Below, piece after piece: positions 6,182 through 24,801 of a DNA stretch of 40,284 bases (positions are counted from its first letter, which is position 1; each line of letters begins with the position of its first letter). Location: assembly GCA_900318465.1 (NCBI GenBank), contig ONKQ01000022.1, forward strand, positions 1 to 40,284, read 5' to 3'. The DNA is from an uncultured Bacteroidales bacterium. GTDB lineage: Bacteria; Bacteroidota; Bacteroidia; Bacteroidales; F082. A program made the translations under genes and the position numbers. Below the pieces are notes generated by a model. The model worked only from the letters and a program-made list of their open reading frames with translations. It ran no database searches and had not been told where the DNA came from.

Positions 6182-7483
6182 ATGAACATAGCAGTTGCAG
6201 GCACAGGCTATGTAGGCCTGAGCATCGCTACATTATTGGCGCAACACAATCACGTTACAGCGGTTGATGTGGTACCTGAAAAGGTGAATCTCATCAACAA
6301 TCGAAAATCTCCCATTCAAGATGAGTATATTGAAAAGTATTTGGCAGAGAAGTCATTGGACTTGAAGGCCACACTTGATGGTGAGGAAGCATACAAAAAT
6401 GCTGAATTTGTGGTTATTGCCGCGCCAACCAATTACGATCCACAAAAGAATTTTTTTGACACGACCCATGTAGAAGAGGTTATCGACTTGGTACTGAAAG
6501 TGAACCCTGAGGCTGTGATGGTCATTAAAAGCACTATCCCCGTGGGTTATACTCGCAACCTTTATGTGAAATATGCGGCCATGGGTGTGAAGAAATTCAA
6601 TCTGCTCTTTTCTCCAGAATTCCTGCGTGAGAGTAAAGCTTTGTACGACAACCTTTATCCAAGCAGAATTGTGGTGGGTGTGCCTAAGATTATAAATCGT
6701 CCCGACTTCGAAAACGAGAACAACGCTATCCGTCAGGTGACAGATGTAGAATTTTTACAGGCAAAGGCTAAAGAATTTGCTGAGTTACTACAGCAAGGAG
6801 CTATCAAGCAGGATGTACCAACATTATTCATCGGTATGAAGGAAGCTGAAGCAGTAAAACTCTTTGCAAATACCTATCTTGCCTTACGAGTGAGCTATTT
6901 CAATGAGTTGGATACATACGCAGAGGTGAAGGGACTTGATACACAAGCCATTATCGAAGGTGTTGGTCTTGACCCTCGTATTGGTACACATTACAACAAT
7001 CCTTCTTTTGGATATGGAGGTTATTGTCTCCCAAAGGACACTAAACAGTTGTTGGCAAATTACGAGGATGTGCCAGAGGATTTGATTCGTGCAATTGTAG
7101 ACAGCAACAGCACACGTAAGGACTTTATTGCTGAACAAGTACTGAGAAAGGCTGGCTATTATGAGGGTAGTAGCCAATGGGATGTTAACCGTGAGCATGA
7201 GTGCGTGATAGGGGTCTATCGTCTGACAATGAAGAGCAATAGTGACAATTTCCGTCAGAGTGCTATCCAAGGTATCATGAAGCGTATCAAGGCCAAGGGT
7301 GCAGAGGTGATTATTTATGAGCCTACGATTGAGGATGGCTCTACTTTCTTTGGTTCGTTGGTGGTCAATGATCTTGTTATGTTCAAAGCCCAAAGCCGTG
7401 CCATTATTGCCAACCGCTATGATAGTTGTCTTGACGATGTGGCAGAGAAGGTCTATACGAGAGACATTTTCAAAAGAGACTAA
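6182..7483 (+). CDS. ugd: UDP-glucose 6-dehydrogenase, copy 1
   Basis: The enzyme oxidises UDP-glucose to UDP-glucuronate with two NAD+. Visible features: Rossmann GTGYVGLS (7-14), [14 protein letters not shown], and the catalytic loop [10 protein letters not shown] with nucleophile Cys282. The C-terminal half has [15 protein letters not shown], typical of UDP-sugar dehydrogenases. At 433 residues it is 36 longer than its paralogue at 8578. The extra length lies mainly in two insertions, one after PSRIVVG ([12 protein letters not shown] region) and one before the GVYRLTMK strand. It sits immediately before the UDP-glucuronate 4-epimerase gene (8-base gap), a natural substrate-product pair. 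Family assignment is firm; whether both copies use UDP-glucose is not certain. Confidence 0.93.
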
Positions 7484-7491
7484 AAGACACT

Positions 7492-8556
7492 ATGACAAAC
7501 ATTCTTATTACCGGATCCGCTGGATTCATCGGGGCTAACTTGGTATTAAGGCTTCTTGAAAGCGATGTACCGTTGAATTTAGTTGGCCTTGACAATTTAA
7601 ATGCATATTACGACACTTCATTGAAGGATTACCGCCTTGGATTGATTGATAAAAAGGCTGTTGTCCATCCTGAGCATCGTTATGAATTTGTAAAAGGTAG
7701 CATTGCCGATAGAGATTTGATCAACCGACTTTTTGCAAAGCATGGCTTTGATATCGTTGTAAACCTCGCAGCCCAAGCGGGTGTTCGATATAGCATCGAA
7801 AATCCCGATGCTTACATTGAGAGCAATATCATTGGATTCTACAATATCATAGAAGCTTGTCGCCATCATCCTGTGAAGCATTTGGTCTATGCCAGTAGTA
7901 GCTCGGTATACGGTGGTAACAAAAAAGTGCCATTCAGCGTTGATGACCATGTTGACAACCCCGTAAGCCTTTACGCAGCCACCAAGAAGAGCAACGAACT
8001 CTTTGCCCACTGCTATAGCAAGCTCTACAATATACCTTCTACAGGATTGCGCTTCTTCACCGTCTACGGCCCAGCTGGAAGACCGGACATGGCTTACTTC
8101 GGCTTCACCAACAAACTGCTGAAAGGCGAGACGATACAAATATACAACTACGGCAACTGCCGCCGTGACTTCACCTACGTGGACGACATTGTAGAGGGTA
8201 TCGTGAGGGTGATGAAGAAAGCCCCTGAAAAGCGTTTAGGTGAAGACGGCCTGCCCATTCCGCCTTACAAAGTCTACAACATCGGAGGTGGCCAGCCTGA
8301 AAACCTATTGGACTTTGTGCAGATTCTGCAAGAAGAATTGGTTAGTGCGGGCGTGTTGCCACAGAACTATGACTTTGAAACCCACAAGCAGCTTGTGCCC
8401 ATGCAACCTGGCGATGTACCCACCACTTATGCCGATGCTACGGCATTGGAGCGCGACTTCGGATTTGTGCCAAAGATAACGTTGAGGGAAGGGTTGAGGA
8501 AGTTTGCGGAATGGTATAAAGAATACTATGAAAAGGAATTTGATTTAATGCTTTAA
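7492..8556 (+). CDS. UDP-glucuronate 4-epimerase-like SDR
   Basis: This extended short-chain dehydrogenase (354 aa) most likely interconverts UDP-GlcA and UDP-GalA. The NAD-binding GSAGFIGANL is at 8-17, the catalytic YAATK gives Tyr161 and Lys165, and a SSSSVYG strand supplies the serine. The stretch NLAAQAGVRYSIENP is characteristic of UDP-glucuronate 4-epimerases rather than plain GalE or RmlB. It is flanked by two UDP-glucose dehydrogenase genes, which would provide its substrate. The product, UDP-GalA, is a plausible acceptor sugar for amide-linked amino acids in this locus. A different nucleotide-sugar epimerase is possible but less likely. Confidence 0.88.
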   Translation: MTNILITGSAGFIGANLVLRLLESDVPLNLVGLDNLNAYYDTSLKDYRLGLIDKKAVVHPEHRYEFVKGSIADRDLINRLFAKHGFDIVVNLAAQAGVRYSIENPDAYIESNIIGFYNIIEACRHHPVKHLVYASSSSVYGGNKKVPFSVDDHVDNPVSLYAATKKSNELFAHCYSKLYNIPSTGLRFFTVYGPAGRPDMAYFGFTNKLLKGETIQIYNYGNCRRDFTYVDDIVEGIVRVMKKAPEKRLGEDGLPIPPYKVYNIGGGQPENLLDFVQILQEELVSAGVLPQNYDFETHKQLVPMQPGDVPTTYADATALERDFGFVPKITLREGLRKFAEWYKEYYEKEFDLML

Positions 8557-8577
8557 TTACCTAAATAAATTTTGATT

Positions 8578-9771
8578 ATGAAAATTACTGTAGCAGGTGT
8601 TGGATATGTCGGATTGTCATTGGCGGTATTGTTTGCGCAGCATCACGAGGTGACGGCGATAACCACAACCCCGAAAAAAGCAGACAAATTGAATGATTTC
8701 ATCAGCCCCATTCAAGATGATGAAATAGAGAGATTTTTTAGAGAAGTAAAAGAAGGAAAGCGTAAGCTCAACCTTCATACCACCGTGGATAAGGATGCCG
8801 CCTATCGCTCAGCTGAGCTGGTAGTGATTGCCACGCCCACGAATTACGATGATGAACACCATTTCTTCGACACATCGGCTGTAGAGGATGCCATTGAGAA
8901 CGTTTTGAGAGTTAATCCGAACGTGCTGATGGTCATCAAATCAACAATCCCTGTGGGATATACGGATTCCGTGCGCAAGAAATACGGGGTGGATAACATC
9001 ATATTCTCACCGGAGTTTTTGCGTGAGAGCAAGGCACTCTACGACAACCTGCATCCGAGCCGTATCGTGGTGGGTGCTTACGAAGACCAGCAAAAAGAGG
9101 CGGAAATGTTTGCGGAGCTGTTGAAAGAAGGTGCCGAGGACAAAGACATCAAGACCTTGATTGCCCATCCGACTGAAGCTGAAGCTGTCAAGTTGTTTGC
9201 CAACACTTATCTGGCAGTACGCGTAAGTTATTTCAACGAGCTGGATACCTACGCACAGGTCAAAGGATTGAATGTACAACAAATCATTGACGGAGTGTGT
9301 ATGGATCCGCGCATTGGCAGCCATTACAACAACCCCAGTTTTGGTTATGGTGGATATTGTCTGCCCAAGGATACCAAGCAACTCCTTGCAAACTATAAAG
9401 ACGTGCCTCAGACCATGATTGAAGCGGTGGTGAGGAGCAATGCCGTCCGTAAGGAATTCATTGCCGACACTATTCTCAAACGGAATCCCAAGACAGTTGG
9501 TGTCTATCGCTTGACCATGAAAAGCAACAGTGACAACTTCCGTGCCTCGGCTATTCAGGATGTCATCAAGCACTTGAGAGCCAATGGTGTGACGGTCATC
9601 ATCTATGAGCCAACGTTGGAGGATGGTAGTGAGTTTGTCGCCAATAAGGTGGTGAACGATCTTGCAAAATTCAAAGCCCAAAGTGATGTTATCATTGCTA
9701 ACCGTTATGATAGTTGCTTTGATGATGTGAAGGAGAAAGTATATACTAGGGATATTTTCAAACGCGACTAG
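8578..9771 (+). CDS. ugd: UDP-glucose 6-dehydrogenase, copy 2
   Basis: Second paralogue of the 6182 gene. I place the start at ATG 8578 rather than the in-frame TTG at 8572, because [14 protein letters not shown] then aligns with the N-terminus of copy 1. The 397-residue protein has the same motifs: [22 protein letters not shown], catalytic [10 protein letters not shown] with Cys261, and [15 protein letters not shown]. Both copies end in [10 protein letters not shown], so they share a recent ancestor, but copy 2 lacks the two insertions of copy 1. Keeping two copies around the epimerase may mean high demand for uronic acids or a shifted substrate for one of them, for example another UDP-hexose. 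Confidence 0.93.
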
Positions 9772-9923
9772 ATTCCACTTGATAAAGAAACATGTTGTTT
9801 GATGAAACATTATAATATTTGTAACAAATCGGATGAAGAGAATGGATGCTCTCAAGACATGAAAAAAACGATAGTTTTCCTATCATAATGACAATGAAGA
9901 AAGATTAAAAAATAAAAATCATC

Positions 9924-9983
9924 ATGAAAATCGCTCTAATCAAAGAAACCAAGACCCCTGTGGACAACCGCGTGCCACTTTGA
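9924..9983 (+). pseudogene. 5' stub of an alanine dehydrogenase/CEO-synthase-like gene
   Basis: The 265-base gap after ugd copy 2 contains ATG plus 18 codons encoding MKIALIKETKTPVDNRVPL and then TGA (9981-9983). This is recognisably the N-terminus of the alanine dehydrogenase/PNT N-terminal fold, where members start M-K-[IL]-x-[FL]-[IV]-[KR]-E...R-V-x-L. The intact relative at 20271 starts MKLGFIKPTYPGEKRVALLP. No continuation appears in the following 50 bases in any frame I checked, so only the 5' end survives. The stub lies just upstream of the opine dehydrogenase gene, as if a neighbour had been deleted. The rest of the gap (9772-9923 and 9984-10036) holds nothing I recognise. Confidence 0.6.
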
Positions 9984-10036
9984 TTAGGTAAGATTAATCT
10001 CAAATCTCAATAGTTAATAATAAAAGTAGTTTTAAT

Positions 10037-11125
10037 ATGAAATTCACCATTATAGGGTGCGGCAATTCGGGCCTCATCCATGCCGCCAAATTATACGAAA
10101 AAGGACACAAAGTAGCTTTGTTGAAGACTTCCAATACCAATGGAAGATATTTCGACATTATCCAAGAAGAAAAATGCTTCAAAGTTAAGGATGACACCAT
10201 ACAGGGCAATGGTAGGGAATATATAGTGAAACCAGCTATGATTACTCGTGATGTTAAAGATGCCATCGAATTTGGAGATGTCGTTATGGTGACTACAACA
10301 ACGCTTCAGCATGAGTTTGTTGCCCAATTGATAGCTCCTCATGTCAGAGATGGCCAAACCATCATTCTTGTGCCTGGCTATATGGGCAGTTTGATTTTCA
10401 AGAAGTACATTCACAAAGACGTGACCTATAGTGAATGGGAAACCACAGCTTACAACGGTCGTATTGTTAACAACGAGTATGTAAGGATTTCTTTCTACAA
10501 TCCGAGAAACGCCATTTCTGTACTTCCGGTTGCTAAGACCCAAGAAGTCCTTGACATGCTTTCAAAATGCTTTGACAACACCAAATATACCCGTAAGCAT
10601 ATCCTTGAATCAGCTTTTCACAACCCCAATATGATTGTTCATCCGATAGGCATTCTTTTCTCTGCCTCTCGTATTGAGTACAGCAATGGAGAGTTTTGGA
10701 TGTACCGCGAAGCTTTCACACCTTCAGTGGTAAATGTTATAAAAGCCTTCGATGTACAGAAAAACAAGGTATTGCAGGCTTTCGATTGTGAGCCACTGGA
10801 TTATTTTGAAGCAGCCAAATGGCGCAACGAAGAAGATTTGAGCATTGATGCCATGGCGGTGTTTCGTTCGTTTGCCGATTCGAGTAATAAAGGCCCGTCG
10901 TTTATCAACCACCGTTACTTGCTTGAGGATGTGCCAATGGGCTTGGGATTGTATATTTCAGTTGCTAAACTTGTAGGAGTGGATACTTCAATCCAGGAAG
11001 GCATTGCTTCACTTGCCTCGGCATTATTAAATAAGGATTTGAAGTTTGAGGCAAGAACTATCCAGTATCTTCTTGGAAGAGACGAAGTTACGGTAGAGGA
11101 TGTAAAACGGGCTATTTCAGAGTAA
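10037..11125 (+). CDS. Opine (octopine/nopaline-type) dehydrogenase
   Basis: Opine dehydrogenases reductively couple the amino group of an amino acid with a 2-oxo acid using NAD(P)H, giving an N-(carboxyalkyl) amino acid. The 362-residue protein has an N-terminal Rossmann fold with GCGNSG at 7-12 and the C-terminal helical domain of the octopine/nopaline dehydrogenase family. That domain carries FHNPNMIVHPIG (194-205), where His195-Asn-Pro and His202 match the conserved active-site motif of the family. It sits between ugd copy 2 and the Wzx flippase gene (3-base gap to Wzx), so it is part of the polysaccharide operon rather than a catabolic unit. The amino-acid and keto-acid substrates cannot be read from sequence. 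Confidence 0.85.
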   Translation: MKFTIIGCGNSGLIHAAKLYEKGHKVALLKTSNTNGRYFDIIQEEKCFKVKDDTIQGNGREYIVKPAMITRDVKDAIEFGDVVMVTTTTLQHEFVAQLIAPHVRDGQTIILVPGYMGSLIFKKYIHKDVTYSEWETTAYNGRIVNNEYVRISFYNPRNAISVLPVAKTQEVLDMLSKCFDNTKYTRKHILESAFHNPNMIVHPIGILFSASRIEYSNGEFWMYREAFTPSVVNVIKAFDVQKNKVLQAFDCEPLDYFEAAKWRNEEDLSIDAMAVFRSFADSSNKGPSFINHRYLLEDVPMGLGLYISVAKLVGVDTSIQEGIASLASALLNKDLKFEARTIQYLLGRDEVTVEDVKRAISE

Positions 11126-11128
11126 AAG

Positions 11129-12598
11129 ATGGCTGATGATTTAAAACAAAAGGCAACTTCTGGTGTGGCGTGGACTTCGATTCAGAAGTTTGCAGGGATG
11201 GGCGTCTCATTTATTGCGGGTATTATCCTTGCGCGATTGCTCACACCAGAAGACTATGGGTGCATAGGAATGCTTTCTATTTTTATGGTGTTGGCAGGAG
11301 CATTTGTTGATGGCGGTTTCGGTTCAGCACTAATTCAGAAAAAAAGGCCAACACAAGAAGACTATTCAACAATATTCTTCTTTAATCTTGGCATGTCCCT
11401 GTTGATGTATGTCATACTTTTTGTTTGTGCACCCGCAATTGCCCGTTTTTATAAAATGCCTATCCTTTCTTCCGTGTTGCGGGTACAAGGGCTAGTGCTA
11501 ATTATTAATGCCTTCTCCTTGATACAAAGTAATCAGTTACGCAAGCAGTTTAAGTTTAAAAAAATAGCGATAGTTACCTTAATTTCTTCTGTCATTTCTA
11601 TTTCGATCACTATTTTTATGGCTTATAAAGGGTTTGGGGTATGGTCTTTGGTAACAATGAACCTTCTTACAGCCTTTATTCCAACAGTGGTTTATTGGGT
11701 TACAAACAAATGGTTTCCGTTATTGGTGTTTTCGAAAACGTCTTTTAAGGAATTATTTAGTTTTGGCTTTTACATGTTCCTTACCACCATCATCACTAGA
11801 CTATGCAATAATATCCAAGGTCTTCTTATAGGTCGTTTTTATAACCCTGCTACGATGGGCTATTATTCGAAAGCAAAAAGCACCGAGGAAATGGCTTCGA
11901 CTAGCCTTTCAAATGTCATTGACCAAGTCGCTTATCCTTTGTATGCCGAATATCAGGATGATAAAGTATTGTTAATCAATGTGATAAAAAAAATAACGCT
12001 ATCTATTGCTTATATAACGTTCCCCATGATATTGCTTCTTATTTTACTTGCAAGGCCGATTTTTGTGTTATTGTATTCAGAACGTTGGTTGGATAGCGTA
12101 CCCTATTTTCAAATTCTTTGTGTCGCTGGTATTGCTATTTGTTTGCAGGGGGTTAATTATCAGGCGATTGCTGCTATTGGCAAAAGCAAGGTTATGTTTA
12201 GTTGGACATTGATAAAACGAGCATTAGGACTGCTGCTGGTTGTTGGTGGTTTATTTGCTTTTGGTATTAAAGGATTGTTGGTTGGCATGGTGATGCAATC
12301 GTGGCTGATTTACTTAATCAATGCTTATCAGGTACATAAATACATAGGATATAAAGTCCTCACACAGTTAATTGACCTACTGCCTATCCTGCTTTTGGCA
12401 GTTGTTTCTTGGGCGATAGCATTTTGTTTAGGGTATATTGTCCACAATTGGCACATGTATGTTATAGCTGTTATACGCTTTTTTGTTTTCATAGGTGTGT
12501 ATATCGGTGGTTCTATGCTGCTTAAGTTGGAATGTTTCAAGTATGTTAAAGAAACGTTGCCATTGTTTTTTGCAAAATTCAGAAAAAAGTCGAGTTAG
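11129..12598 (+). CDS. Wzx/WzxC-type lipid-linked oligosaccharide flippase
   Basis: This 489-residue inner-membrane protein has about 12-14 hydrophobic segments and the N-terminal pattern of the WzxC/TuaB branch of polysaccharide flippases (SGVAWTSIQKFAGMG, ILARLLTPEDYG, GGFGSALIQ). It would move undecaprenyl-linked repeat units to the periplasmic side. Its start lies 3 bases after the opine dehydrogenase stop. The DNA here is clearly AT-rich: 21 G/C in 60 bases at 12001-12060, counted by hand, against 38 of 60 in lysS. With the Wzy-like gene at 22238 it defines a Wzx/Wzy-dependent pathway. Export genes (Wza, Wzc) are not in the window. Confidence 0.92.
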   Translation: MADDLKQKATSGVAWTSIQKFAGMGVSFIAGIILARLLTPEDYGCIGMLSIFMVLAGAFVDGGFGSALIQKKRPTQEDYSTIFFFNLGMSLLMYVILFVCAPAIARFYKMPILSSVLRVQGLVLIINAFSLIQSNQLRKQFKFKKIAIVTLISSVISISITIFMAYKGFGVWSLVTMNLLTAFIPTVVYWVTNKWFPLLVFSKTSFKELFSFGFYMFLTTIITRLCNNIQGLLIGRFYNPATMGYYSKAKSTEEMASTSLSNVIDQVAYPLYAEYQDDKVLLINVIKKITLSIAYITFPMILLLILLARPIFVLLYSERWLDSVPYFQILCVAGIAICLQGVNYQAIAAIGKSKVMFSWTLIKRALGLLLVVGGLFAFGIKGLLVGMVMQSWLIYLINAYQVHKYIGYKVLTQLIDLLPILLLAVVSWAIAFCLGYIVHNWHMYVIAVIRFFVFIGVYIGGSMLLKLECFKYVKETLPLFFAKFRKKSS

Positions 12599-12634
12599 TA
12601 TTTTTGTGATACATTTATATAATTTATTGTTTTT

Positions 12635-13765
12635 ATGAATAACAGGATTATCTCTTATGAACATGTTGGGGAAGAATGGATCTCCGAGAAAATGACCAAA
12701 TTGCGAGAAAAATTATGGTACAAAGAAGATGTCAATACTATTAAGAAGAAACTCCAACAATGTGATGTTACCCCGTTGTCTCAGGAGCAAAAAAAAGAGA
12801 TTAATGCCTTTTGGAAAAAACTAATTGGTAAAGATGTGCCATTTTATTGGCACGAATACTTTTATTCCCGAAATGGAGTGTTTTCACCACGGTATGTGCC
12901 GACTTGCGTGTATCATTCTCAATTGATATATCGATTGAATTTGCGACCGCTTACCATGGCATATACCGACAAGTGTTCTTATGACAATTATCTTCCTGAT
13001 GTACACAGACCAGAAACTATAATTAGGAACATCAATGGCTACTTTTTTGATGAAAGAAAACCTATAACCAAAACAGAGGCGCTCGAAAGATGCAAAAATT
13101 TGGATGATGTGGTCATTAAACCTTCGATGATAGGAATGTGGGGTACTGGAGTGCGAATCATTTCATCAGACAATGGTCGTGTTAGTGAGACTGAGACAGT
13201 TGAAGATTTGTTTAACACATTCAAGGAAAACTATATCATTCAAAAGAAAGTTGTTCAACACCCGGAAATGTCACGTCTTAATCCCACATCGCTTAATACG
13301 TTAAGAGTGCTGTCATTTCATCATGGAGATGAGGTTTTCGTGCTTTATGCGGTGGTGCGAATTGGAAGAAAGGACAGAATGGTTGACAACGAAACCGCAG
13401 GAGGAATCAATGCTGACATTTGTCTTGAGGATGGTCGTATCCAAGATTGTGCATATGGTACACCAGCTGAAAAGCGCATTCAAACCACGGATGTCGGAAC
13501 GGCGTTGAAGGGTTTTGAAATACCTGCTTTTGCGGAAGTGCTGTCAACGGTAAAACAATTACATAAACGATTGCCGTATTTTAATTTGATAGGTTGGGAT
13601 TTCGGAGTTGATAGTACAGGAAAGCCTGTGTTAATTGAGTTTAATCGTTGTCCTGATTTGAGCCAAACAGCCCATGGACCGGCATTCGGTGATATGACGG
13701 AAGAGATTGTCAAGTTTGCGTTAAGTCAAAAAGACACTTTCAATATCAGACTCTGGAATGGCTGA
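12635..13765 (+). CDS. Sugar-transfer-associated ATP-grasp protein, copy 1
   Basis: The 376-residue sequence fits the ATP-grasp family found in polysaccharide loci (ATPgrasp_ST type). Visible elements: a nucleotide-binding lysine in VVIKPS (Lys162), NTLRVL near 220, RIGRK...VDNETAGGIN (about 243-258), and the metal-binding end GWDFGVD (320-326) plus VLIEFN with Glu335 and Asn337. ATP-grasp enzymes activate a carboxylate as acyl phosphate and join it to an amine or similar nucleophile. The family is generally thought to modify sugars, but its reaction is not established to my knowledge. It is followed 43 bases later by a CapA-type gene; the same pair recurs at 16899/17969. A role in attaching an amino acid or opine is inference. 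Confidence 0.85.
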   Translation: MNNRIISYEHVGEEWISEKMTKLREKLWYKEDVNTIKKKLQQCDVTPLSQEQKKEINAFWKKLIGKDVPFYWHEYFYSRNGVFSPRYVPTCVYHSQLIYRLNLRPLTMAYTDKCSYDNYLPDVHRPETIIRNINGYFFDERKPITKTEALERCKNLDDVVIKPSMIGMWGTGVRIISSDNGRVSETETVEDLFNTFKENYIIQKKVVQHPEMSRLNPTSLNTLRVLSFHHGDEVFVLYAVVRIGRKDRMVDNETAGGINADICLEDGRIQDCAYGTPAEKRIQTTDVGTALKGFEIPAFAEVLSTVKQLHKRLPYFNLIGWDFGVDSTGKPVLIEFNRCPDLSQTAHGPAFGDMTEEIVKFALSQKDTFNIRLWNG

Positions 13766-13808
13766 TTCTTTTTGTGAACAAGGCAATGTTTTGTAATAAA
13801 ATTGTGTT

Positions 13809-14957
13809 ATGAGTATTCGTTTGTTTTTTGCTGGTGACTTTTGTTCCAAGCCTACAACTTCATTTATCACGGTTTCCGATGAATTAAAGGTGTTGATTCA
13901 ATCTTGTGATTTGAGGGTGGTGAATTTTGAAGTACCCTTGAAACCAGACATTGACCTTCCACCACAACGCTATGAGCGTTTTTGGCAACATGACGATGTT
14001 CCCGATTTTTTGAGAGGACTTGGATTCAACCTCTTTCCAATGGCCAACAATCATGCGTTTGACTGGGGTGACGATGGGTTTAAGAAGACAAAAGCAGCGT
14101 TGGGAGACCAATCTTTTGGCGTTGGCTCGTATGACGATGCGTATAAAGTGAAGGTTTGTGAAATCAACGGTCTTAAAATCGGTTTCCTTGCCCTTACTTA
14201 TGCGGCATATACTGGTGTTTTTGATGATGTGCTTCGTCACGAAGGTTTAGGTTGTGCCTATATCAACGACCTTCGAGTCAACCATGATATTATGGAAGCA
14301 AAGAAAACTGTCGATTACTTGTTTGTTTTGCCTCACGATGGCATTGAATACATCGATGTGCCACTGCCTGAAACAATCGCTAGATATAGGGATTTCATTG
14401 ATTATGGAGCCGATGGTGTCATAGCTAGTCACCCACATTGTCCGCAAGGATGGGAGGAATACAAGGGTAAGCCGATTTTTTACAGTCTTGGAAACTTTTT
14501 TTTCAATAGCAAAGAAAACACATTATATCGTGCCTATAACAGACCACATTGGTACGAAGGAATTTGTGTTGAGTTGCAATTATCAGAAAACCAAATTAGT
14601 TATAGGGTTTTCAATACAAGGAATATTGATAATGTTTCACTTGTGATAGATTCTGGAAAAGATCGTGAAGAACATAATCTCAAGATTTGTTCTTATTTGA
14701 AAGACAAAGATTCATACATGACTTATCTCAACGAACAATGTAAAAATCTATCTGATTCTCAAGAAATGCCGATAATTGATAAAACTATGCATCCTGATTC
14801 GTTGAAATCGTACACCAAACAAGCGTTGAAGAATTGGATAAAGATACTGCGGAAACAAAAGGTTTCCAGCGACTTTCCAATAAAGACTTTATTGCGGAAT
14901 GATACAAGAAGAAATGTTTTGATGCGGAATTTAAAAAACGAAGAAACAAATAAATAA
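13809..14957 (+). CDS. CapA-type metallophosphatase-like protein, copy 1
   Basis: The first 260 or so residues match the CapA/PgsA family, a calcineurin-like metallophosphoesterase fold first known from poly-gamma-glutamate capsule loci. Likely metal ligands are in order: AGDF (Asp10), NFE (Glu41), NNHAFD (Asn81, His82, Asp85), PHDGIE (His176) and SHPH (207-210), then YSLGNFFF. All are intact, so the enzyme is probably active. No signal peptide is visible, so a cytoplasmic location is likely. The last 110 residues are a variable helical tail. It pairs with the ATP-grasp gene upstream. No CapB or CapC ligase is nearby, so classical polyglutamate synthesis is unlikely; a phosphatase role in the ATP-grasp reaction is a guess. 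Confidence 0.85.
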   Translation: MSIRLFFAGDFCSKPTTSFITVSDELKVLIQSCDLRVVNFEVPLKPDIDLPPQRYERFWQHDDVPDFLRGLGFNLFPMANNHAFDWGDDGFKKTKAALGDQSFGVGSYDDAYKVKVCEINGLKIGFLALTYAAYTGVFDDVLRHEGLGCAYINDLRVNHDIMEAKKTVDYLFVLPHDGIEYIDVPLPETIARYRDFIDYGADGVIASHPHCPQGWEEYKGKPIFYSLGNFFFNSKENTLYRAYNRPHWYEGICVELQLSENQISYRVFNTRNIDNVSLVIDSGKDREEHNLKICSYLKDKDSYMTYLNEQCKNLSDSQEMPIIDKTMHPDSLKSYTKQALKNWIKILRKQKVSSDFPIKTLLRNDTRRNVLMRNLKNEETNK

Positions 14958-14967
14958 ATTCTACAAG

Positions 14968-15044: not shown

Positions 15045-15162
15045 CATGAGGAGGAATATGCAGTTGAGGTTTTTGCCTGTGTGATGCAATTTTGTAATTA
15101 AATAATGTACTTTTTTGTGAGGATAAGCGTTATTAGTAGAAAAACTTAAAACGATTACACTG

Positions 15163-15546
15163 ATGACAATAGAATTGTTTACATTGTGTGACGGGGCTTA
15201 CAATTATAATGATAAACTTACCATCGTTGGGTCATGGACTTCCATAAGCGTCAACGAGATTCCTGCAAAAATACCCGTTGGCGTTGCCATGAGAATTAGA
15301 ATTGAAGCAAAAGAAAAGGGTAAAAAGGAGATGAAAATACACTTCTTGAATCCTGATGGCACTAAGGTTCCAACGGATATTGCTGTATCATTGGATATTA
15401 AACAAGCTAAAGAGATCACTTATATTAATCTTGCGGCTATGGTACAAGGTTTCCCTGTAACCCAAGTGGGGCAATATGTTGTCAAAGTGATAATTGATAA
15501 TGATGTAATAGAAGAGTATCCGTTTGTTGTTGAAATGAAAAAATAA
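15163..15546 (+). CDS. Small beta-rich protein of unknown function (127 aa)
   Basis: First gene of a tight three-gene cassette. The sequence alternates short strands (LTIVGSWTSISV, VAMRIRIEAKEK, KEMKIHFLNPDGT, QYVVKVIIDNDVIEEYPF) and looks like a single beta-sandwich. It resembles small 'hypothetical' bacterial proteins beginning MTIELFTLCDGAYNYN, possibly the DUF6941 type, but I name that only tentatively. No signal peptide or membrane segment. The stop overlaps the next start (TAATG at 15544-15548), so the two are coupled. No link to sugar chemistry is visible; it appears to be cargo inserted into the polysaccharide operon. Confidence 0.8.
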   Translation: MTIELFTLCDGAYNYNDKLTIVGSWTSISVNEIPAKIPVGVAMRIRIEAKEKGKKEMKIHFLNPDGTKVPTDIAVSLDIKQAKEITYINLAAMVQGFPVTQVGQYVVKVIIDNDVIEEYPFVVEMKK

Positions 15547-15965
15547 TGAGTACAAGTATAGAATATAGAATTTCCGACAATAAAGGAGTTCGGCACGTCA
15601 GTAACGAGGAGGGAATTGTCGTTAGATTATCGGCAATGCGTTCTGAAGCTGGGAAAAAAGCAAAGGAACTTGACATGTCGGATTCATCGACTTTCAGCAC
15701 ATTTAAAAGCAATTATGAAAGTTGGAACGCTACTAATCTTTTGTTATCCTCAAGCAATATTGACAATGTCTATTTTCAGGAAATTGTCAAAATGGGATTA
15801 GCAGCTGTGCCATATATTTATGAAGAACTAAAAAAGGGGCCGACGGATCTTGTTTATGCGCTGGATGAAATATTTGGTAATCCAATCAAGTATGATGGCT
15901 TTGTTTCTTTAAAGCAATCTTGTGATTTATGGCTCTCAATTCTCCAGAAAACAGGCAAATTCTAA
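15546..15965 (+). CDS. Small helical protein of unknown function (139 aa)
   Basis: The start codon overlaps the stop of the previous gene by one base, suggesting translational coupling. The product is soluble and mostly helical by inspection, with a section MGLAAVPYIYEELKKGPTDL that looks like one HEAT-type helical repeat and an ALDEIFGNP helix. No catalytic motif or export signal is visible. It overlaps the next ORF by 37 bases in another frame. With its neighbours it forms a compact cassette of three genes whose function I cannot assign. Confidence 0.78.
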   Translation: MSTSIEYRISDNKGVRHVSNEEGIVVRLSAMRSEAGKKAKELDMSDSSTFSTFKSNYESWNATNLLLSSSNIDNVYFQEIVKMGLAAVPYIYEELKKGPTDLVYALDEIFGNPIKYDGFVSLKQSCDLWLSILQKTGKF

Positions 15966-16528
15966 TTAGTATTTTTCCAAATCTTGGTCACGACGGTTCT
16001 TTCGTTATAAAAAGCGAAAAGACAACTGCCTATAATTGCATAGCATGGGCGATGGGCTTTGATGACAGGTGGGTTGACCATTTGCCTGATAATGATATAG
16101 CGAAAAAGAAATGGTGGCCAGACGGAGTGGCAAGAGACTATAACCCTGAAACTTTGGTTGTTGCTTTTGAAAAACTTGGTTTCGAAAAGTGCGATGATGA
16201 CCAAGAAGAGGTTGGTTATGACAAGGTGGCACTGTATAAGGTTTCACCTTTAGTCAACCCGATTACATTTCAAGTTATTGCAAATGAGGGATGGTCCCAT
16301 GCAGCACGAGTACTTTCCGCAAATTTATATTATAGCAAGATTGGTTCGTTATTTGATGTTTATCATCGAAGCGGTGATATCTTCAAGGGTTCTATTTATG
16401 GCGAGGTTTTTCAGTTCATGAAGCGAAAAGTAGAAGATAGTATCATCACGGAACGCATTAAGTCCGAACGGTCAACAATAACCGTTCCTGATAATATCCT
16501 TGATATTATTACAACAAAAATGATTTAG
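15929..16528 (+). CDS. Protein with AYNCIAWA/SHAAR motifs, possibly cysteine-hydrolase-like (199 aa)
   Basis: Third gene of the cassette; the start at 15929 lies inside the preceding gene (37-base overlap) and is favoured because the conserved-looking part (SIFPNLGHDGSF) begins soon after. Motifs: AYNCIAWAMG with Cys37, a KWWPDG segment, KVALYK, and GWSHAARVL with His124. This combination recalls a group of uncharacterised bacterial proteins (possibly DUF7689). A Cys/His pairing like a papain-fold hydrolase is conceivable, but only inferred from motif spacing. There is no signal peptide, so it probably acts in the cytoplasm. The C-terminal 45 residues are charged and less conserved-looking. 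Confidence 0.78.
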   Translation: MALNSPENRQILISIFPNLGHDGSFVIKSEKTTAYNCIAWAMGFDDRWVDHLPDNDIAKKKWWPDGVARDYNPETLVVAFEKLGFEKCDDDQEEVGYDKVALYKVSPLVNPITFQVIANEGWSHAARVLSANLYYSKIGSLFDVYHRSGDIFKGSIYGEVFQFMKRKVEDSIITERIKSERSTITVPDNILDIITTKMI

Positions 16529-16898
16529 AAAAAGAATATAATCACCACACACAGCCCATATCTTTTGACCCAATTTATTCTTAAGGCACGAATGCCCAAT
16601 AGGGAAACAATGGAGCTGATTCTATATGAAAGCATTAACTTATTATTCAGTTCATTTCATGACCAAAGAAGGGGCTGTGAAGGGTATGATGGGTTCCGAG
16701 ACCAAACTGATTAAAGGTGAATATCTCGATTCGGCTTCAGAAGATTCGGAAGACTTGTCATTATTGAATGACTATCAGCTGAGTTGAAAGCTTGGTCTTC
16801 GGAAAAAAGATGTTATTTGAGCAAACTACAACGTGTTGTGTCAAATGCCATTCAAGCATTGCTTTTTACACTTGTTACAATTACTTATATTAACAAAA
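16529..16898. other. 370-base gap between the small-gene cassette and ATP-grasp copy 2
   Basis: Apart from the 53-codon ORF at 16626-16787, described separately, I see no gene, tRNA or clear promoter here. No terminal inverted repeats or target-site duplications typical of an insertion sequence were found by eye. The sequence is AT-rich. It is probably the right flank of the block that separated ATP-grasp copy 2 from CapA copy 1. Confidence 0.5.
16626..16787 (+). CDS. Possible small protein or gene fragment (53 aa)
   Basis: An ATG-started frame encodes 53 residues beginning MKALTYYSVHFMTKEGAVKG and ending in an acidic serine/aspartate-rich section (DSASEDSEDLSLLNDYQ). I do not recognise it. 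It may be a genuine small protein belonging to the preceding cassette or the remains of a longer gene. No conserved motif supports either reading, and an in-frame stop lies directly upstream. Confidence 0.3.
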   Translation: MKALTYYSVHFMTKEGAVKGMMGSETKLIKGEYLDSASEDSEDLSLLNDYQLS

Positions 16899-17966
16899 AT
16901 GCAAATATTATCAAACATAAGAAGAAAACGCGTTGAGCAGAATCTTATCAATGGCGTAAGAAAAAACACCCAAAAAATCAACAATACTCGAGACCTTACA
17001 CCTACTCAAAAAAGGGAAATCAAACAATATTGGCGTGATTTGCTTGGCATCGACATTCCTTTGGATTGGCATCGTTATTTTTATAAACGGACAGGTGTTT
17101 TTTCTGTCAAATACATCCCTACAAGTCTGTATTATACAGACATTATTGGCAGAATCAATCAAATGCAATTTGAGAGGGCTTATTCAGACAAGAATCTCAC
17201 CGAATTGTTGTTAAAAGATGTAAAACAGCCGGAAACGGTGTTGAAAAACGTAAACGGTTATTTTTATCACGATGGAAAGAACATCAGCAAAGAAGAAGCC
17301 GCTCGTGTTTGTTGGAACATGGATGACATCATCATTAAGCCATCATTAAAGAGTCATGGTGACGGGGTGAAGAAGTTTGCTTGTGTCAATGGAAAAATAT
17401 CAGTTGAAGGCAAAACCATAGAACAGCTGTTTGATTTGTATGAAAAGGATTTTATCATCCAAAAAGTGGTGCATCAGCACGAAAAAATGAATGAACTGAA
17501 TCCTTCATCGGTCAACACTATTCGGATACTTACTTATCATTCAGGTATGGAAGTGATTGTGCCGTATACCGTTGTCCGTATAGGAAGGAAAGGCTGGGAT
17601 ATCGACAATGAGACCGCTGGTGGTATCAGTACTAAGATTAACGCGGATGGAACCTTATGCAAATATGCCTTTGGCTCGCCGGGGAACGACATGATTGAAA
17701 AAACCGATACAGGTACCGTACTCGAAGGTTTTAAGGTTCCTTCTTTTGATAAAGCCATTGAAAAGGTGAAGCAGTTACATCTTCAGTTGCCTCATTTCAA
17801 CTTGATTGGGTGGGACATCTGCATCGATAATGAGGGCGACCCCGTTCTGATTGAATGGAATGTGTGGCCTGAGTTAAGCCAATCCGCCAACGGACCCGCG
17901 TTTGGTGATTATACGGATAGAATCTTGAAAGAGATTTGGGGAAGAGAAAACACACATCAATACTAA
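16899..17966 (+). CDS. Sugar-transfer-associated ATP-grasp protein, copy 2
   Basis: I place the start at ATG 16899 (355 aa) rather than the upstream in-frame ATG at 16833. The extra 22 residues would be an odd cysteine/leucine-rich stretch, while MQIL onward is echoed in the stub at 14968. The protein is a clear paralogue of the 12635 product, sharing WHRYFYKRTGVFS, DIIIKPS (Lys147), NTIRILTYHSG, IDNETAGG (235-242), LIGWD (Asp306) and VLIEWN (Glu319, Asn321). All expected ATP and metal ligands are present. A CapA-type gene follows after 2 bases, reproducing the copy 1 pair. The acceptor and donor carboxylate are unknown; attachment of an amino acid or opine to a sugar is my inference. Confidence 0.84.
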   Translation: MQILSNIRRKRVEQNLINGVRKNTQKINNTRDLTPTQKREIKQYWRDLLGIDIPLDWHRYFYKRTGVFSVKYIPTSLYYTDIIGRINQMQFERAYSDKNLTELLLKDVKQPETVLKNVNGYFYHDGKNISKEEAARVCWNMDDIIIKPSLKSHGDGVKKFACVNGKISVEGKTIEQLFDLYEKDFIIQKVVHQHEKMNELNPSSVNTIRILTYHSGMEVIVPYTVVRIGRKGWDIDNETAGGISTKINADGTLCKYAFGSPGNDMIEKTDTGTVLEGFKVPSFDKAIEKVKQLHLQLPHFNLIGWDICIDNEGDPVLIEWNVWPELSQSANGPAFGDYTDRILKEIWGRENTHQY

Positions 17967-17968
17967 AA

Positions 17969-19060
17969 ATGATTACGATAGCTGCCGTTGGTGACATCAT
18001 GCCTGGAGGAATTCTTGCGGGTATTGATGATGGCTATGCTTCTAAGGAGGTTTTTGATGTCCTTAACAAAGCGGATATTCGAGTTGGAACCTTGGAAACC
18101 GCGATAGGGGATGAACCGACTTTTTATGAAGAGAAAATGAAGCGTATGGCTGATGTCATTTACGCAAAAGATCATGATGTGGTTAAATTGCAGCAACTCT
18201 CCATCGATATTGTCAGTTTGGCCAACAATCATTTCTTCGACCTTGGACCAAAAGGAGCTGAACATACCATCCAATTGTTGGATGAAATGGGCATAAAACA
18301 TATAGGTGCCGGAAAGAATCTTGAAGAAGCGCAGAGGCCGGTTGTTGAAACCATCAATGGAAAGAAAGTGACGTTCTTGGCGTTTTGCGACTGGCGGAAC
18401 GAAACTGTTGGTTGGTGTCCATTTGCATCGGAGGAAAGTGCTGGGGTAAATCCCATGAATGATGATTATGTGGTTAAGGAGATAAAAAAATATAAGAGTC
18501 AAAGCGATTATGTCGTGGTTATGCCCCATTGGGGGATAGAGCATACATGGACAACAACGAACCATGTTTATTCCCTGGCGAAGACAATGATAAAGGCTGG
18601 AGCTGATTTGATACTGGGCAGCCATCCTCACCGTGTCCAGCCAATTGTGAACTGCAAAAATGCTTCAGTTGCTTACAGTATGGGTAATTTTCTATTTCCT
18701 GATAGATTGATTACCAAACCTCGTTCTACGTACTATTCAGAAACACCCATTGATTTATCAAGCTTGCCTGTCACAGATGCCTATCCGTATGTGGAGCAGA
18801 TTACATACAAAAAATGGAAACCTTTGGCAAGGGTGGGAATGATTGTAAACACTGAGCTGTCAGAAAACACAGTGAATTCAAGTTATAAGTTGACTTTGAT
18901 GGGGGAGGATGGAGTATTAACTCTTTTGGATGATACGAAAAAGACAGACCAAATTTTAAAGAGACGCGGAAAGCTTTTGAGAATGAATACATATCCCGTA
19001 TTTTATCTAATTGAAAGATATTGGATTGCCGTGTTGAGAAAAATTGGATTAAAAGTTTAA
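17969..19060 (+). CDS. CapA-type metallophosphatase-like protein, copy 2
   Basis: Start set at ATG 17969 (363 aa): it lies 2 bases after the ATP-grasp stop and gives MITIAAVGDIMPGG, the normal CapA start, whereas an upstream in-frame ATG at 17936 would add 11 residues inside the previous gene. Metal-binding motifs are intact: VGDI (Asp9), TLET (Glu43), NNHFFD (Asn86/Asn87/His88/Asp91), PHWGIE, GSHPHRVQP and YSMGNFLF. This copy is closer to typical CapA/PgsA proteins than copy 1, for instance in the complete GSHPHRVQP. No signal peptide is seen. It forms the second ATP-grasp/CapA pair. The 74 bases after it contain nothing recognisable. Confidence 0.87.
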   Translation: MITIAAVGDIMPGGILAGIDDGYASKEVFDVLNKADIRVGTLETAIGDEPTFYEEKMKRMADVIYAKDHDVVKLQQLSIDIVSLANNHFFDLGPKGAEHTIQLLDEMGIKHIGAGKNLEEAQRPVVETINGKKVTFLAFCDWRNETVGWCPFASEESAGVNPMNDDYVVKEIKKYKSQSDYVVVMPHWGIEHTWTTTNHVYSLAKTMIKAGADLILGSHPHRVQPIVNCKNASVAYSMGNFLFPDRLITKPRSTYYSETPIDLSSLPVTDAYPYVEQITYKKWKPLARVGMIVNTELSENTVNSSYKLTLMGEDGVLTLLDDTKKTDQILKRRGKLLRMNTYPVFYLIERYWIAVLRKIGLKV

Positions 19061-19134
19061 ATATGAAACATCCTTTTAACTGACGCAAGTGAGTAGACCA
19101 TAGTTGTTGATTAGAACTATTAGCACACGAAATT

Positions 19135-20262
19135 ATGATTAATAAATTTACGGCTTTTTTTAATAGGATTTTAAAAGTCCTTATCAACTGGTTTATTATA
19201 AAACCGTTGAGATTGATTTATTTGTTTAGACACAAGGAACTTTATGTTCACAAGTCATACTTTCCTGAGCTAGCTGACAAAAGAAAATCTTCTGTGCGGA
19301 TTTTCTTTGAACAGATTGGGAATATATTTAAATATAATTGCTACGACTTGTTTTATTTCCCTTATGGATGTGATGTGAAGACAAAAAAAGAGTGTAAAAA
19401 ATACATCAATTACCAATTCTTCAATATTAAAAGGGATTCTCTCAATTTTTCTGATAAGGTGAATTGCGCTTGTATATTGCGCGATAAGATACTCTTTAAT
19501 ATTTTTGCGAATGGAATAGGCATAAGCACTCCCAAAAATGTACTTTATGTTTCCAATGGGAAGTTGTATGATTTTGAGACCAAGCAAGAAGTTTTTGCCA
19601 ACCAATTGGTTCAATATAGTGGCAATGCCTTGTTCTGCAAATTGGTGGATGGCGAATGCGGTAAAGGGGTTTTCAAATTGGAATATGAGAACGGCAAGTT
19701 CTATATTGACGGAGTTGAACACCCTGTTGACGAGGTCTATCAAAAATTGACAAGTGGTCGGTATTTGGCTCAAGAAGTGATACATCAACACGCATTGATG
19801 GCATCGTTACATCCCCAATCAGTTAATTCAATGCGTATTGTCACTGTTAAAAGCGTCAAAGACGGGATTATTAGAGTCTGGCCGTCCATATTTCGTATGG
19901 GTACTGGTAACAGTGTCGTGGATAATACTTCCCAGGGTGGCGTTTATACAGGCATTGATTTTACCACAGGAAAACTGAAAGAAACCGGTTTCTACAAACC
20001 TCAGTTTGGCTTGAAGACCGATCGACATCCAGATAGTGGTATCATTTTCAAGGAATTTGAGATACCATACCTGAAAGAAGTCCAAGAACAAGCCATTTAT
20101 TTCCATTCCATGCTTCCTGGATTGCAATCCGTAGGTTGGGATATTGCCATAGGTGAAAAAGGTCCAGTGTTTATTGAAGGAAACGACAATTGGGAAATCA
20201 ACGGACCGCAAATATGCAACGGTGGTCTGAAGGATTTGTTTGAAGAGCAAATGTATAAATAA
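19135..20262 (+). CDS. Sugar-transfer-associated ATP-grasp protein, copy 3
   Basis: This 375-residue protein is a more distant member of the same ATP-grasp group. The N-terminus has a short hydrophobic/basic stretch (FNRILKVLINWFIIKPLRLI) that could associate with the membrane. The core shows FCKLVDGECGKGVF (glycine-rich nucleotide loop), NSMRIVTV, VVDNTSQGG (Asp263, Asn264), RHPDSG, SVGWDIAIG (Asp336) and VFIEGND (Glu348, Asn350). These match the family signature better than copies 1 and 2 do. It has no CapA partner; instead the carboxyethyl-amino-acid synthase gene begins 8 bases downstream. It is therefore a candidate for the enzyme that uses the product of that synthase. Confidence 0.85.
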   Translation: MINKFTAFFNRILKVLINWFIIKPLRLIYLFRHKELYVHKSYFPELADKRKSSVRIFFEQIGNIFKYNCYDLFYFPYGCDVKTKKECKKYINYQFFNIKRDSLNFSDKVNCACILRDKILFNIFANGIGISTPKNVLYVSNGKLYDFETKQEVFANQLVQYSGNALFCKLVDGECGKGVFKLEYENGKFYIDGVEHPVDEVYQKLTSGRYLAQEVIHQHALMASLHPQSVNSMRIVTVKSVKDGIIRVWPSIFRMGTGNSVVDNTSQGGVYTGIDFTTGKLKETGFYKPQFGLKTDRHPDSGIIFKEFEIPYLKEVQEQAIYFHSMLPGLQSVGWDIAIGEKGPVFIEGNDNWEINGPQICNGGLKDLFEEQMYK

Positions 20263-20270
20263 ATAATATT

Positions 20271-21206
20271 ATGAAATTAGGATTTATCAAGCCCACCTAC
20301 CCGGGCGAAAAAAGAGTGGCGTTGTTGCCAGAACACATTACTCCCGACTTTGAAAACGAGCTAATCATCGAAACAGGCTATGGCTCAAATTTAGGCATTG
20401 ATGATGCCGAATACGTGGCCAAGGGTTGTACGATAGATACTCGGGCTAACGTCTTTCTGAAATGTGACACTGTTTTTTGCTTGAAATTGATTCAACCCGA
20501 AGATTATGATTCACTTCGCAACGGACAGATGATTATCGGTTGGACCCATCCTACAGGATCAGGTACAAAATTCTATCAGAATGTGGCCTGTAAAAAAGGT
20601 CTATACATTATTGACCTTGATAATATATACCCTACAGCTCATATTGGCGACAAGCATATCCCTGTTCCGTTTATTAGGAAAAACTTTGTGTGGAAGAATA
20701 GTTTCTATGCAGGTGTGGCCAGTGTGCAACATGCTCTTTTGTATTTTGGTCTTTATCCGGATTCTGAAACGAAAGTGGCAGTGTTGGCAAGTGGAAGTTG
20801 CTCACAGGGCGCTTACAGTTACATTTCAAAGTACAATGCCGATGTTCGTATGTTCTATCGCAAAACCATGAATGAGTTTTATGAGACCATTGGTGAATAT
20901 GATGTGATTATCAATGGAATTGAAGTTGATAACACGGTAGCTCACATTATCACCAAAGATGATTTGAAACGAGTGAAGAAAGGGTGTCTTATCATTGACT
21001 CCGCAGCTGATGCAGGTAACGCCATCGAAGGAACAAGATACATGTCAATTGCCGAACCAATGTATGAAGAAGACGGTCTTTTCTTCTACGAGGTAAACAA
21101 CGCGCCTTCGTTGCTTTATCGCCGCACCAGCTTTGAAATCAGCAAATCATTCTCAGAATGGGTTTATAAAAAGGATGTGAAACGTTTCTGGCAATTATTT
21201 GAATAA
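20271..21206 (+). CDS. ceo: N5-(carboxyethyl)ornithine synthase-like enzyme
   Basis: The 311-residue protein closely resembles the Lactococcus N5-(1-carboxyethyl)ornithine synthase (about 313 aa), which reductively condenses pyruvate with the side-chain amine of ornithine, and also lysine, using NADPH. Visible features: GEKRVALLP (12-20), CLKLIQPEDY (Lys72), IGWTHPTGSG (His93), a Rossmann strand with SGSCSQGA, RMFYRKTMNEFYE, and IDSAADAGNAIEGT. The fold is that of alanine dehydrogenase/PNT. The first glycine of the usual GxGxxxxG loop is Ala, which may affect cofactor preference. The gene sits between two ATP-grasp genes (8-base gap upstream, one-base overlap downstream), which suggests the product is ligated to something. 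Alanine or saccharopine dehydrogenase activity is less likely given length and motifs. Confidence 0.83.
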   Translation: MKLGFIKPTYPGEKRVALLPEHITPDFENELIIETGYGSNLGIDDAEYVAKGCTIDTRANVFLKCDTVFCLKLIQPEDYDSLRNGQMIIGWTHPTGSGTKFYQNVACKKGLYIIDLDNIYPTAHIGDKHIPVPFIRKNFVWKNSFYAGVASVQHALLYFGLYPDSETKVAVLASGSCSQGAYSYISKYNADVRMFYRKTMNEFYETIGEYDVIINGIEVDNTVAHIITKDDLKRVKKGCLIIDSAADAGNAIEGTRYMSIAEPMYEEDGLFFYEVNNAPSLLYRRTSFEISKSFSEWVYKKDVKRFWQLFE

Positions 21207-22222
21207 TGAAAATAGGTGTATTTAATTCATTTGATGGTATTCATGAAAAGGTCGTTGCAGCTTGCAAGGATCTTGGTGTTGATTATGAAGTAGTTGACAT
21301 CTTGTCGGCGAATTGGATCCAGAATGTTAAGGATTCTGATGCAGATGGCTTCTTTTGCCCATCAAATTACCAGTCGCAAGAAAAAAAGTCAATTCTAGAT
21401 GAAAGATACTATTTCGTTTCACAGTTGATGAAACGCCCAATCTACCCTGATTTCCTTGGTGGATTTATCCATGAGAGTAAAAGAAACATGGCTGCATGGC
21501 TCGAATTGTATGGATTCCCCCATCCAAAGACCCGTGTGTTTACCAATAAGCATGAGGCGTTGGAATACGTGGAACATTGTTCCTATCCTTTTGTTACTAA
21601 GGCCAATGTGGGATCTGCGGCCACAAAGGTTATTATCATTAAATCAAAAAGAAAGGCCAAGCGCATGATAAGGAAGTGCTTTACTTGGTTTGATGGTAGA
21701 AATGCGCTGTATAATATTCCATTTCATGCTTTCTATTATAAGGCAAAACTCAAAGGACTTCCTTTTAAGGATCGTCGAAACCCACAAAAGGATTACTTTA
21801 TAGCTCAGGATTTTGTTACAAATGTTCAGCACGAGTGGCGCATTTTGAAAGTGGGAGATTCGTATTTTGGCCATCAAAAGTTGTTGAAAGGTGAGTTCGC
21901 GAGTGGTTCGGGTTTGGTTGGATGGGTGGCTCCTCCTAAGGAATTATTGCTTATGGTAAAAGAGTTATGTGAGATTGGAGGTTTCCCCTGCATGGATGTT
22001 GATATTTTTGAGAATGACAAAGGCGAATACTATATCAATGAGCTTCAATCATTTTTTGGTTCCTATCTGGATTATCAAATGAAAATTGATGATGTACCAG
22101 GTAGATATGTCTATAAAAACGGAGAGTTCGTTTTTGAGAAAGGTGAGTTTAACACATTTGGATCTAATAGACTGAAAATTGAGCATTTTATTCAAATGCT
22201 TGAGTCTGGTGAAATAAGATAA
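21206..22222 (+). CDS. ATP-grasp ligase, RimK/D-Ala-D-Ala-ligase-like
   Basis: This 338-residue protein is not of the sugar-transfer-associated type but has a standard ATP-grasp outline. It has an N-terminal alpha/beta domain (MKIGVFNSFDGIHEKVV), the nucleotide lysine in FVTKANVGSAATKVII (Lys132), an EWRILKVGD strand and a C-terminal metal site with MDVDIF (Asp264, Asp266) and YYINELQS (Asn278, Glu279). Such enzymes form amide bonds between a carboxylate and an amine. Its start overlaps the stop of the carboxyethyl-ornithine synthase gene (TAATG), so the two are almost certainly translated together. The obvious hypothesis is that it couples the carboxyethyl amino acid to a uronic acid or another amino acid. 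A Wzy-like gene follows 15 bases later. Confidence 0.8.
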   Translation: MKIGVFNSFDGIHEKVVAACKDLGVDYEVVDILSANWIQNVKDSDADGFFCPSNYQSQEKKSILDERYYFVSQLMKRPIYPDFLGGFIHESKRNMAAWLELYGFPHPKTRVFTNKHEALEYVEHCSYPFVTKANVGSAATKVIIIKSKRKAKRMIRKCFTWFDGRNALYNIPFHAFYYKAKLKGLPFKDRRNPQKDYFIAQDFVTNVQHEWRILKVGDSYFGHQKLLKGEFASGSGLVGWVAPPKELLLMVKELCEIGGFPCMDVDIFENDKGEYYINELQSFFGSYLDYQMKIDDVPGRYVYKNGEFVFEKGEFNTFGSNRLKIEHFIQMLESGEIR

Positions 22223-24319: not shown

Positions 24320-24323
24320 TGGT

Positions 24324-24785: not shown

Positions 24786-24801
24786 AAACACCATAATAAT
24801 A

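Follow-up and report, generated by a model that had tools for sequence, protein, structure and literature searches.

Organization of the glycan locus

The window analysed here is the whole 40,284-nucleotide contig ONKQ01000022.1 of an uncultured Bacteroidales bacterium (contig C23 of genome G000, which comprises 3.67 Mb in 132 contigs). It carries a surface-glycan locus whose main subject is a pair of adjoining genes, a homologue of carboxyethyl-ornithine synthase (CEOS) at 20271 and a ligase candidate of the ATP-grasp type at 21206 (genes are designated by their start positions). Glycan genes extended from about 5211 to 33808, all on the + strand and with intact open reading frames (ORFs). 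Every gene named in the initial annotation was confirmed, i.e. two Ugd, one epimerase, two types of dehydrogenase, four ATP-grasp proteins, two CapA proteins and a Wzx/Wzy pair, in one intact, one-strand locus.

5211..6128, + strand: RmlA-like nucleotidyltransferase (NTP_transferase, 261.9 bits), likely the first glycan gene
6182..7483, + strand: Ugd 1, nucleotide-sugar dehydrogenase of UDP-glucose type (UDPG_MGDP_dh domains)
7492..8556, + strand: SDR epimerase (Epimerase domain), probably a UDP-uronate 4-epimerase turning UDP-glucuronic acid (UDP-GlcA) into UDP-galacturonic acid (UDP-GalA)
8572..9771, + strand: Ugd 2
10037..11125, + strand: opine dehydrogenase (PF02317)
11129..12598, + strand: Wzx flippase (Polysacc_synt_3, 315.7 bits)
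12635..13765, + strand: ATPgrasp_ST a (PF14397), candidate amidoligase and, by proximity to 10037 orthologues, candidate partner of 10037
13809..14957, + strand: CapA/PGA_cap protein a (Pfam)
15163-16528: three small ORFs inside the glycan operon (DUF6941, no match, DUF7689)
16833..17966, + strand: ATPgrasp_ST b (PF14397)
17936..19060, + strand: CapA/PGA_cap protein b (Pfam)
19135..20262, + strand: ATPgrasp_ST c (PF14397)
20271..21206, + strand: CEOS homologue (AlaDh_PNT family), from sequence similarity and conserved residues
21206..22222, + strand: ATP-grasp protein of LysX/RimK fold (family A1/A3), from predicted structure and gene pairing
22238..23344, + strand: EpsG-type Wzy polymerase (EpsG, 34.5 bits)

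The three PF14397 proteins scored 139.5-173.6 bits (cut-off 31.4) and the two CapA/PGA_cap proteins (PF09587) 149.6 and 205.1 bits (cut-off 27). The hallmark set of Wzx/Wzy-dependent synthesis was present, with flippase 11129, polymerase 22238 and an initiating transferase at 31246; no chain-length or export gene was found among the Pfam-scanned window proteins, the rest of the genome not having been searched for them. Epimerase 7492 shared 50-53% identity with homologues in the Shewanella fidelis, P. luteoviolacea, Escherichia coli plasmid and G820 loci described below. Its top PDB label was dTDP-glucose 4,6-dehydratase, and the uronate substrate is a prediction.

The 20271/21206 pair and its counterpart in Shewanella fidelis

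Protein 20271 (311 aa) displayed 47-53% identity over 98-99% to five genes, four of which are annotated as CEOS. The N5-(carboxyethyl)ornithine synthases of Lactococcus and Vagococcus resemble it over their full length (310-314 aa) and share its conserved residues. Unlike 20271, however, they lie outside glycan loci and have no annotated adjoining ATP-grasp gene in the two plasmid regions viewed. R15, H93 and D247 were conserved in all six rows of alignment A2 and K72 in five of them, 20271 possessing all four; we take their roles to be those of the corresponding residues of alanine dehydrogenase (AlaDH). The nearest solved structure was also AlaDH, yet identity reached about 50% with CEOS against about 24-27% with the alanine dehydrogenases listed. 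Alanine and saccharopine dehydrogenase were considered as alternative assignments and rejected, since the fold is common to both while the sequence favours CEOS. This similarity suggests that 20271 would use pyruvate and the side-chain amine of either lysine or ornithine in a condensation reaction. Further CEOS homologues, occurring without a 21206 homologue, were recorded at L062:10238-11173 (80%), L063:10211-11164 (34%) and L064:9541-10590 (32%). All three adjoin DUF354 sugar-enzyme genes, those of L062 and L063 also hexapeptide transferases, and L062 additionally carries NeuB.

The gene that matters most in the locus is 21206, which the initial annotation did not single out. It is nearly unannotated at the sequence level and scored far below the NCBIfam cut-offs of TIGR00768 (35.1 versus 143.4 bits) and TIGR02144 (33.4 versus 275.6 bits). 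Its predicted structure is nevertheless a clear ATP-grasp, closest to LysX, ArgX and RimK (14-16% identity), with conserved ATP and metal residues. The model thus places 21206 with LysX/RimK in fold and expected chemistry, without its being filed as a family member. LysX, ArgX and RimK join the alpha-amine of an amino acid to a carboxylate; LysX, for instance, joins alpha-aminoadipate to the carboxyl of its carrier. The acceptor of these enzymes is a protein carrier, whereas that of 21206 is predicted to be a sugar. Given its LysX-like fold, its gene partner and the S. fidelis glycan presented next, 21206 is predicted to ligate the alpha-amine of an opine to the carboxyl of a uronic acid.

Shewanella fidelis ATCC BAA-318 is given as strain KMM 3582 in a passage of PMC6722870. 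The title of Kilcoyne 2004, as cited in PMC11087588, reports Nε-[(S)-1-carboxyethyl]-Nα-(D-galacturonoyl)-L-lysine in the O-polysaccharide of this species. PF02317 and the 21206 family were each represented by a single gene in its whole genome, the latter 44% identical to 21206, and the two genes were adjacent. They lie in a locus with SLBB/export, Wzz, sugar-phosphate transferase, glycosyltransferase (GT) and Wzx genes, Ugd (56% to 8572), an epimerase (50% to 7492) and a Wzy_C-like gene (31.1 bits, slightly below the 31.7 cut-off). The locus therefore shares with the window a 21206 homologue accompanied by an opine dehydrogenase, Ugd, epimerase, Wzx and polymerase-like genes. It differs in its phylum, in the rest of its genes and in the dehydrogenase next to the ligase, which is of octopine rather than CEOS type. 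Of 335 evenly sampled genomes of this order, only S. fidelis and G820 had the ligase. In G820, the locus includes Ugd (59% to 8572), an epimerase (52% to 7492) and, separated from the ligase by four genes, a dehydrogenase of CEOS type.

Since S. fidelis combines the same ligase family, an opine dehydrogenase and the reported amide, the most likely role of 20271 and 21206 is the synthesis of a carboxyethyl amino acid and its attachment to a uronic acid through an amide bond. The initial annotation had assigned such amides to the ATP-grasp enzymes of the locus at large. By analogy with S. fidelis this would hold for 21206 with 20271, but the comparison gave no such support for the three PF14397 proteins or for CapA, since BLAST detected homologues of neither in the S. 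fidelis locus. Moreover, the same-genus relative G047 carries homologues of 20271 (82%) and 21206 (63%) side by side, yet PF14397 matched nothing in the entire genome. PF14397 proteins were accordingly rejected as the opine ligases of this pair.

We consider it likely that the locus builds a Wzx/Wzy surface polysaccharide in which the carboxyl of a uronic acid carries an amide-linked N-(1-carboxyethyl) amino acid. In this scheme Ugd and epimerase 7492 would provide UDP-GlcA and UDP-GalA, as their families suggest. In a reductive condensation, 20271 would then couple pyruvate to L-lysine or L-ornithine at the side-chain amine, yielding, by similarity to annotated CEOS, N6-(1-carboxyethyl)lysine or N5-(1-carboxyethyl)ornithine. 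21206 would activate the uronate carboxyl with ATP and join it to the alpha-amine of the opine, the acceptor being either a nucleotide sugar or a lipid-linked repeat. Wzx would finally flip the product and Wzy polymerise it. A carboxyethyl-lysine on GalA is also described for the Providencia rustigianii O14 O-antigen in the part of PMC10609480 consulted; this antigen and that of P. alcalifaciens O35 are likened to the window by glycan chemistry and not by genes.

Exchange of dehydrogenases beside the ligase

Three rows of the 21206 family served as queries in a scan of one genome per species, which required exact matches to two peptide patterns. It yielded 25 loci from Bacteroidota, Pseudomonadota, a Sulfurovum, a Bacillota and candidate phyla, and none from Providencia or Proteus. 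An opine-type dehydrogenase was present in 20 loci, directly adjacent to the ligase in 19 and one gene apart in L080. When gene order was shuffled within loci (20,000 trials), the adjacent cases averaged 4.1 and never exceeded 15. The dehydrogenase models (HMMs, hidden Markov models) were seeded with the neighbours themselves; independent support came from Pfam for eight, from BLAST to window proteins for most others and from whole-genome PF02317 matches, the L092 enzyme resting on a weak match (37 bits).

These dehydrogenases belong to two unrelated folds, CEOS/AlaDH in 11 loci and octopine dehydrogenase in nine. On a ligase tree of 26 rows (the partial L092 was left out, as in alignment A3) the type switched at least six times, and opposite types accompanied strongly supported sister ligases (L068/L080 and E. 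coli plasmid/L084). This replacement of one fold by the other at a single place suggests that the ligase needs a shared class of product and not a shared ancestry of the dehydrogenases. Beside the pair in L080 and L068 stood a PF14397-like gene, which may contribute there. A nucleotide-sugar dehydrogenase was found in 10 of the 25 loci by BLAST (E<=1e-4) and in six by strict HMM, some loci being cut by contig ends. Support for a uronic-acid acceptor thus exists in the window and the gammaproteobacterial examples, and is weaker in the other loci.

The single match of 21206 among 72,556 plasmid records was located in a polysaccharide island of an E. coli plasmid, where the ligase homologue (41%) adjoins a distant CEOS-annotated gene (24%) and is accompanied by flippase, EpsG, epimerase and Ugd (59% to 8572) genes. 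The pair occurred in five of 5,426 E. coli genomes, twice on plasmids (100%) and three times on chromosomes (71% identity). In the two plasmid islands (L067, NZ_AP027746.1; L094, NZ_JCAPTY010000003.1) the pairs were 100% identical and situated between IS91-type or IS26 elements; the plasmids came from a human host in Viet Nam and a Chinese frog farm. A 71%-identical chromosomal pair (L093:12962-15078) was found in an insertion-sequence-broken island near tRNA-Phe, together with flippase and ATP-grasp remnants.

Several observations weigh against this assignment of the pair. The S. fidelis dehydrogenase is not of the CEOS type found in the window, and AlaDH-type genes, probably ordinary alanine dehydrogenase, occur on other contigs of that genome. 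Homologues of 20271 were encountered without 21206 in G004, G003, G020 and Firmicute plasmids. Conversely, divergent 21206 paralogues (L099, and L138-L141 from the phylum sample described below) had another context without an opine dehydrogenase neighbour; one of them belongs to the genome of the window itself (L099:9163-10182, G000:C123, 33% identical, adjoining an epimerase and glycosyltransferases). The ligase fold alone does therefore not predict an opine substrate. As to the scan, near-copies among the Bacteroidales loci make the figure of 25 overstate independence, and one of the three queries was itself taken from the L069 genome. Five loci (L071, L077, L081, L085 and L090) lacked a dehydrogenase within the fetched flanks; a PF02317 gene was present elsewhere in the L071 genome, on a different contig, whereas the other four genomes had no PF02317 gene and only AlaDH-type matches. 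In a sample of 395 genomes of the phylum, PF02317 was present in five, the 21206 family (E<=1e-20) in 19 and the CEOS family in 14, but in no genome other than G000 did 21206 adjoin a dehydrogenase; G215 had both on different contigs. This sample speaks against a simple ligase-dehydrogenase rule, the weaker 21206 matches being paralogues without a dehydrogenase.

Two observations concern the surroundings of these ligases. The paralogues of L138-L140 adjoin a protein of about 576 aa and a GT, and in L071 and L077 a CapA/PGA_cap-like gene was found directly upstream of the ligase, at the usual place of the dehydrogenase.

The second dehydrogenase and competing explanations

The second dehydrogenase, 10037, matched PF02317 with 105.5 bits (cut-off 30) and aligned over its full length to CENDH (1bg6, E 2.2e-28). 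Its H202, R293 and D298 are in register with H202, R292 and D297 of 1bg6, presumably the active-site residues of CENDH, and recur in nine of nine ODH rows. It shared 43% identity with the S. fidelis enzyme and 41% with that of Photobacterium jeanii encoded beside a 21206 homologue. On these grounds 10037 is probably a real opine dehydrogenase, here in a glycan-locus setting. Orthologues (65-97%) occurred in eight of 149 relatives searched, the genome of the window included. A PF14397 gene lay within 6.3 kb in all seven same-genus genomes (again with the window; 55 bp in G088), PF14397 matches overall being recorded in 35 of about 90 same-genus genomes; the eighth, G090, had no PF14397 match.

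The initial annotation had placed both dehydrogenases in a single pathway. This was abandoned in favour of two modules, since relatives carry them apart: none of the seven stretches fetched around 10037 orthologues contained a 21206 homologue. The 20271/21206 and 10037/PF14397 units appear to be two separable cassettes brought together in this genome. In what is the weaker part of the proposal, 10037 would very likely make a further carboxyalkyl amino acid, to be joined by a PF14397 ligase. The chemical idea of the initial annotation thus has good odds of being right for 20271/21206, and is a candidate only for 10037, the PF14397 ligases and CapA.

A third pairing was noticed in five relatives (L055-L059, from G049, G026, G114, G050 and G148), where PF02317 adjoins an unrelated ATP-grasp in glycan-like loci, with a conserved protein of about 620 aa without Pfam match and a DegT gene (adjacent in four of five). 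The ATP-grasp of L055, the one among the five scanned with Pfam, is GARS_A/ATP-grasp_4. This block is perhaps another opine-decoration cassette.

The remaining glycan locus (23366..33808, + strand, Pfam scans of window proteins) and the flanking genes are as follows.

803: ClC channel gene, flanking the glycan genes on one side
23366 and 25706, + strand: GTs
24324, + strand: hexapeptide transferase
24748, + strand: RmlD
26845 and 30311, + strand: epimerases
27778, + strand: RmlC
28367, + strand: GFO/IDH/MocA
29401, + strand: ORF without Pfam match
31246, + strand: WecA-like transferase
32624, + strand: DegT aminotransferase
33885-39932, - strand: alpha-2-macroglobulin gene, flanking on the other side

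The small ORFs at 15163-16528 were also considered as a defence cassette, which was rejected as six window ORFs gave no PADLOC match.

These ORFs suggest a patchwork locus, and 10037 could accordingly be a leftover or an independently acquired cassette outside the 20271/21206 glycan repeat. Its orthologues and the 20271 homologues do occur in different relatives and, among matched genomes, both were present at 65% identity or more only in that of the window. We nonetheless regard this as unlikely, given an intact ORF with its catalytic residues between Ugd 2 and Wzx and the nearby PF14397 gene in all seven same-genus orthologue genomes. Another explanation has the opines of 20271, 10037 or both acylate an amino sugar through their own carboxyl, the amino sugar being supplied by DegT (32624). 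The alanopine, (2S,4S)-N-(1-carboxyethyl)alanyl, on Qui4N of P. alcalifaciens O35, described in a portion of PMC10609480, provides a precedent, and the five relatives pairing PF02317 with another ATP-grasp and DegT would fit. For 20271/21206, however, the S. fidelis title indicates that the alpha-amine is bound to a uronoyl group, and the loci of the pair in S. fidelis, P. luteoviolacea, the E. coli plasmid and G820 also contain homologues of Ugd and the epimerase, which makes acylation quite improbable.

Finally, the amino acids that the ATP-grasps attach to the uronic acid might be ordinary ones, the dehydrogenases being alanine or amino-acid dehydrogenases or part of unrelated metabolism. 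Uronic-acid amides with plain amino acids are common according to the same portion of PMC10609480, the solved structure closest to 20271 is an AlaDH, and some 21206 homologues lack an adjoining dehydrogenase. Yet 20271 is far closer to CEOS than to alanine dehydrogenases, alanine metabolism hardly explains why two unrelated opine-type folds swap at the same place, and the reported S. fidelis amide contains carboxyethyl-lysine; we hold this explanation to be very improbable.

The uronic-acid amide proposed for 20271 and 21206 may form part of a broader picture, towards which we remain tentative and, on balance, slightly doubtful. The two unrelated dehydrogenases may supply two different opines to one glycan, e.g. 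(S)- and (R)-carboxyethyl forms or lysine and ornithine forms, one joined to uronic acid by 21206 and the other attached through a unit of PF14397 ATP-grasp and CapA. On a wider scale, an interchangeable cassette of opine dehydrogenase (of two unrelated folds) and ATP-grasp may decorate surface glycans across Bacteroidota, Pseudomonadota, Campylobacterota-like bacteria and candidate phyla.

Carboxyethyl-lysine amides have been known in O-antigens for two decades. The chemistry is thus not new, but neither a gene assignment for it nor the exchange of dehydrogenases was found in the searchable, open-access literature (subscription journals lay outside the search), which likewise offered no usable gene cluster for Providencia or Proteus strains with carboxyethyl-lysine. 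The presence of the same enzyme pair in a strain with a reported glycan points to the genes behind this chemistry, and together with the two-gene signature it makes the question testable at once. The family clearly exemplifies how non-homologous enzymes can replace each other alongside one ligase, and its signature allows genome-based prediction of such decorations, including in uncultured gut Bacteroidales.

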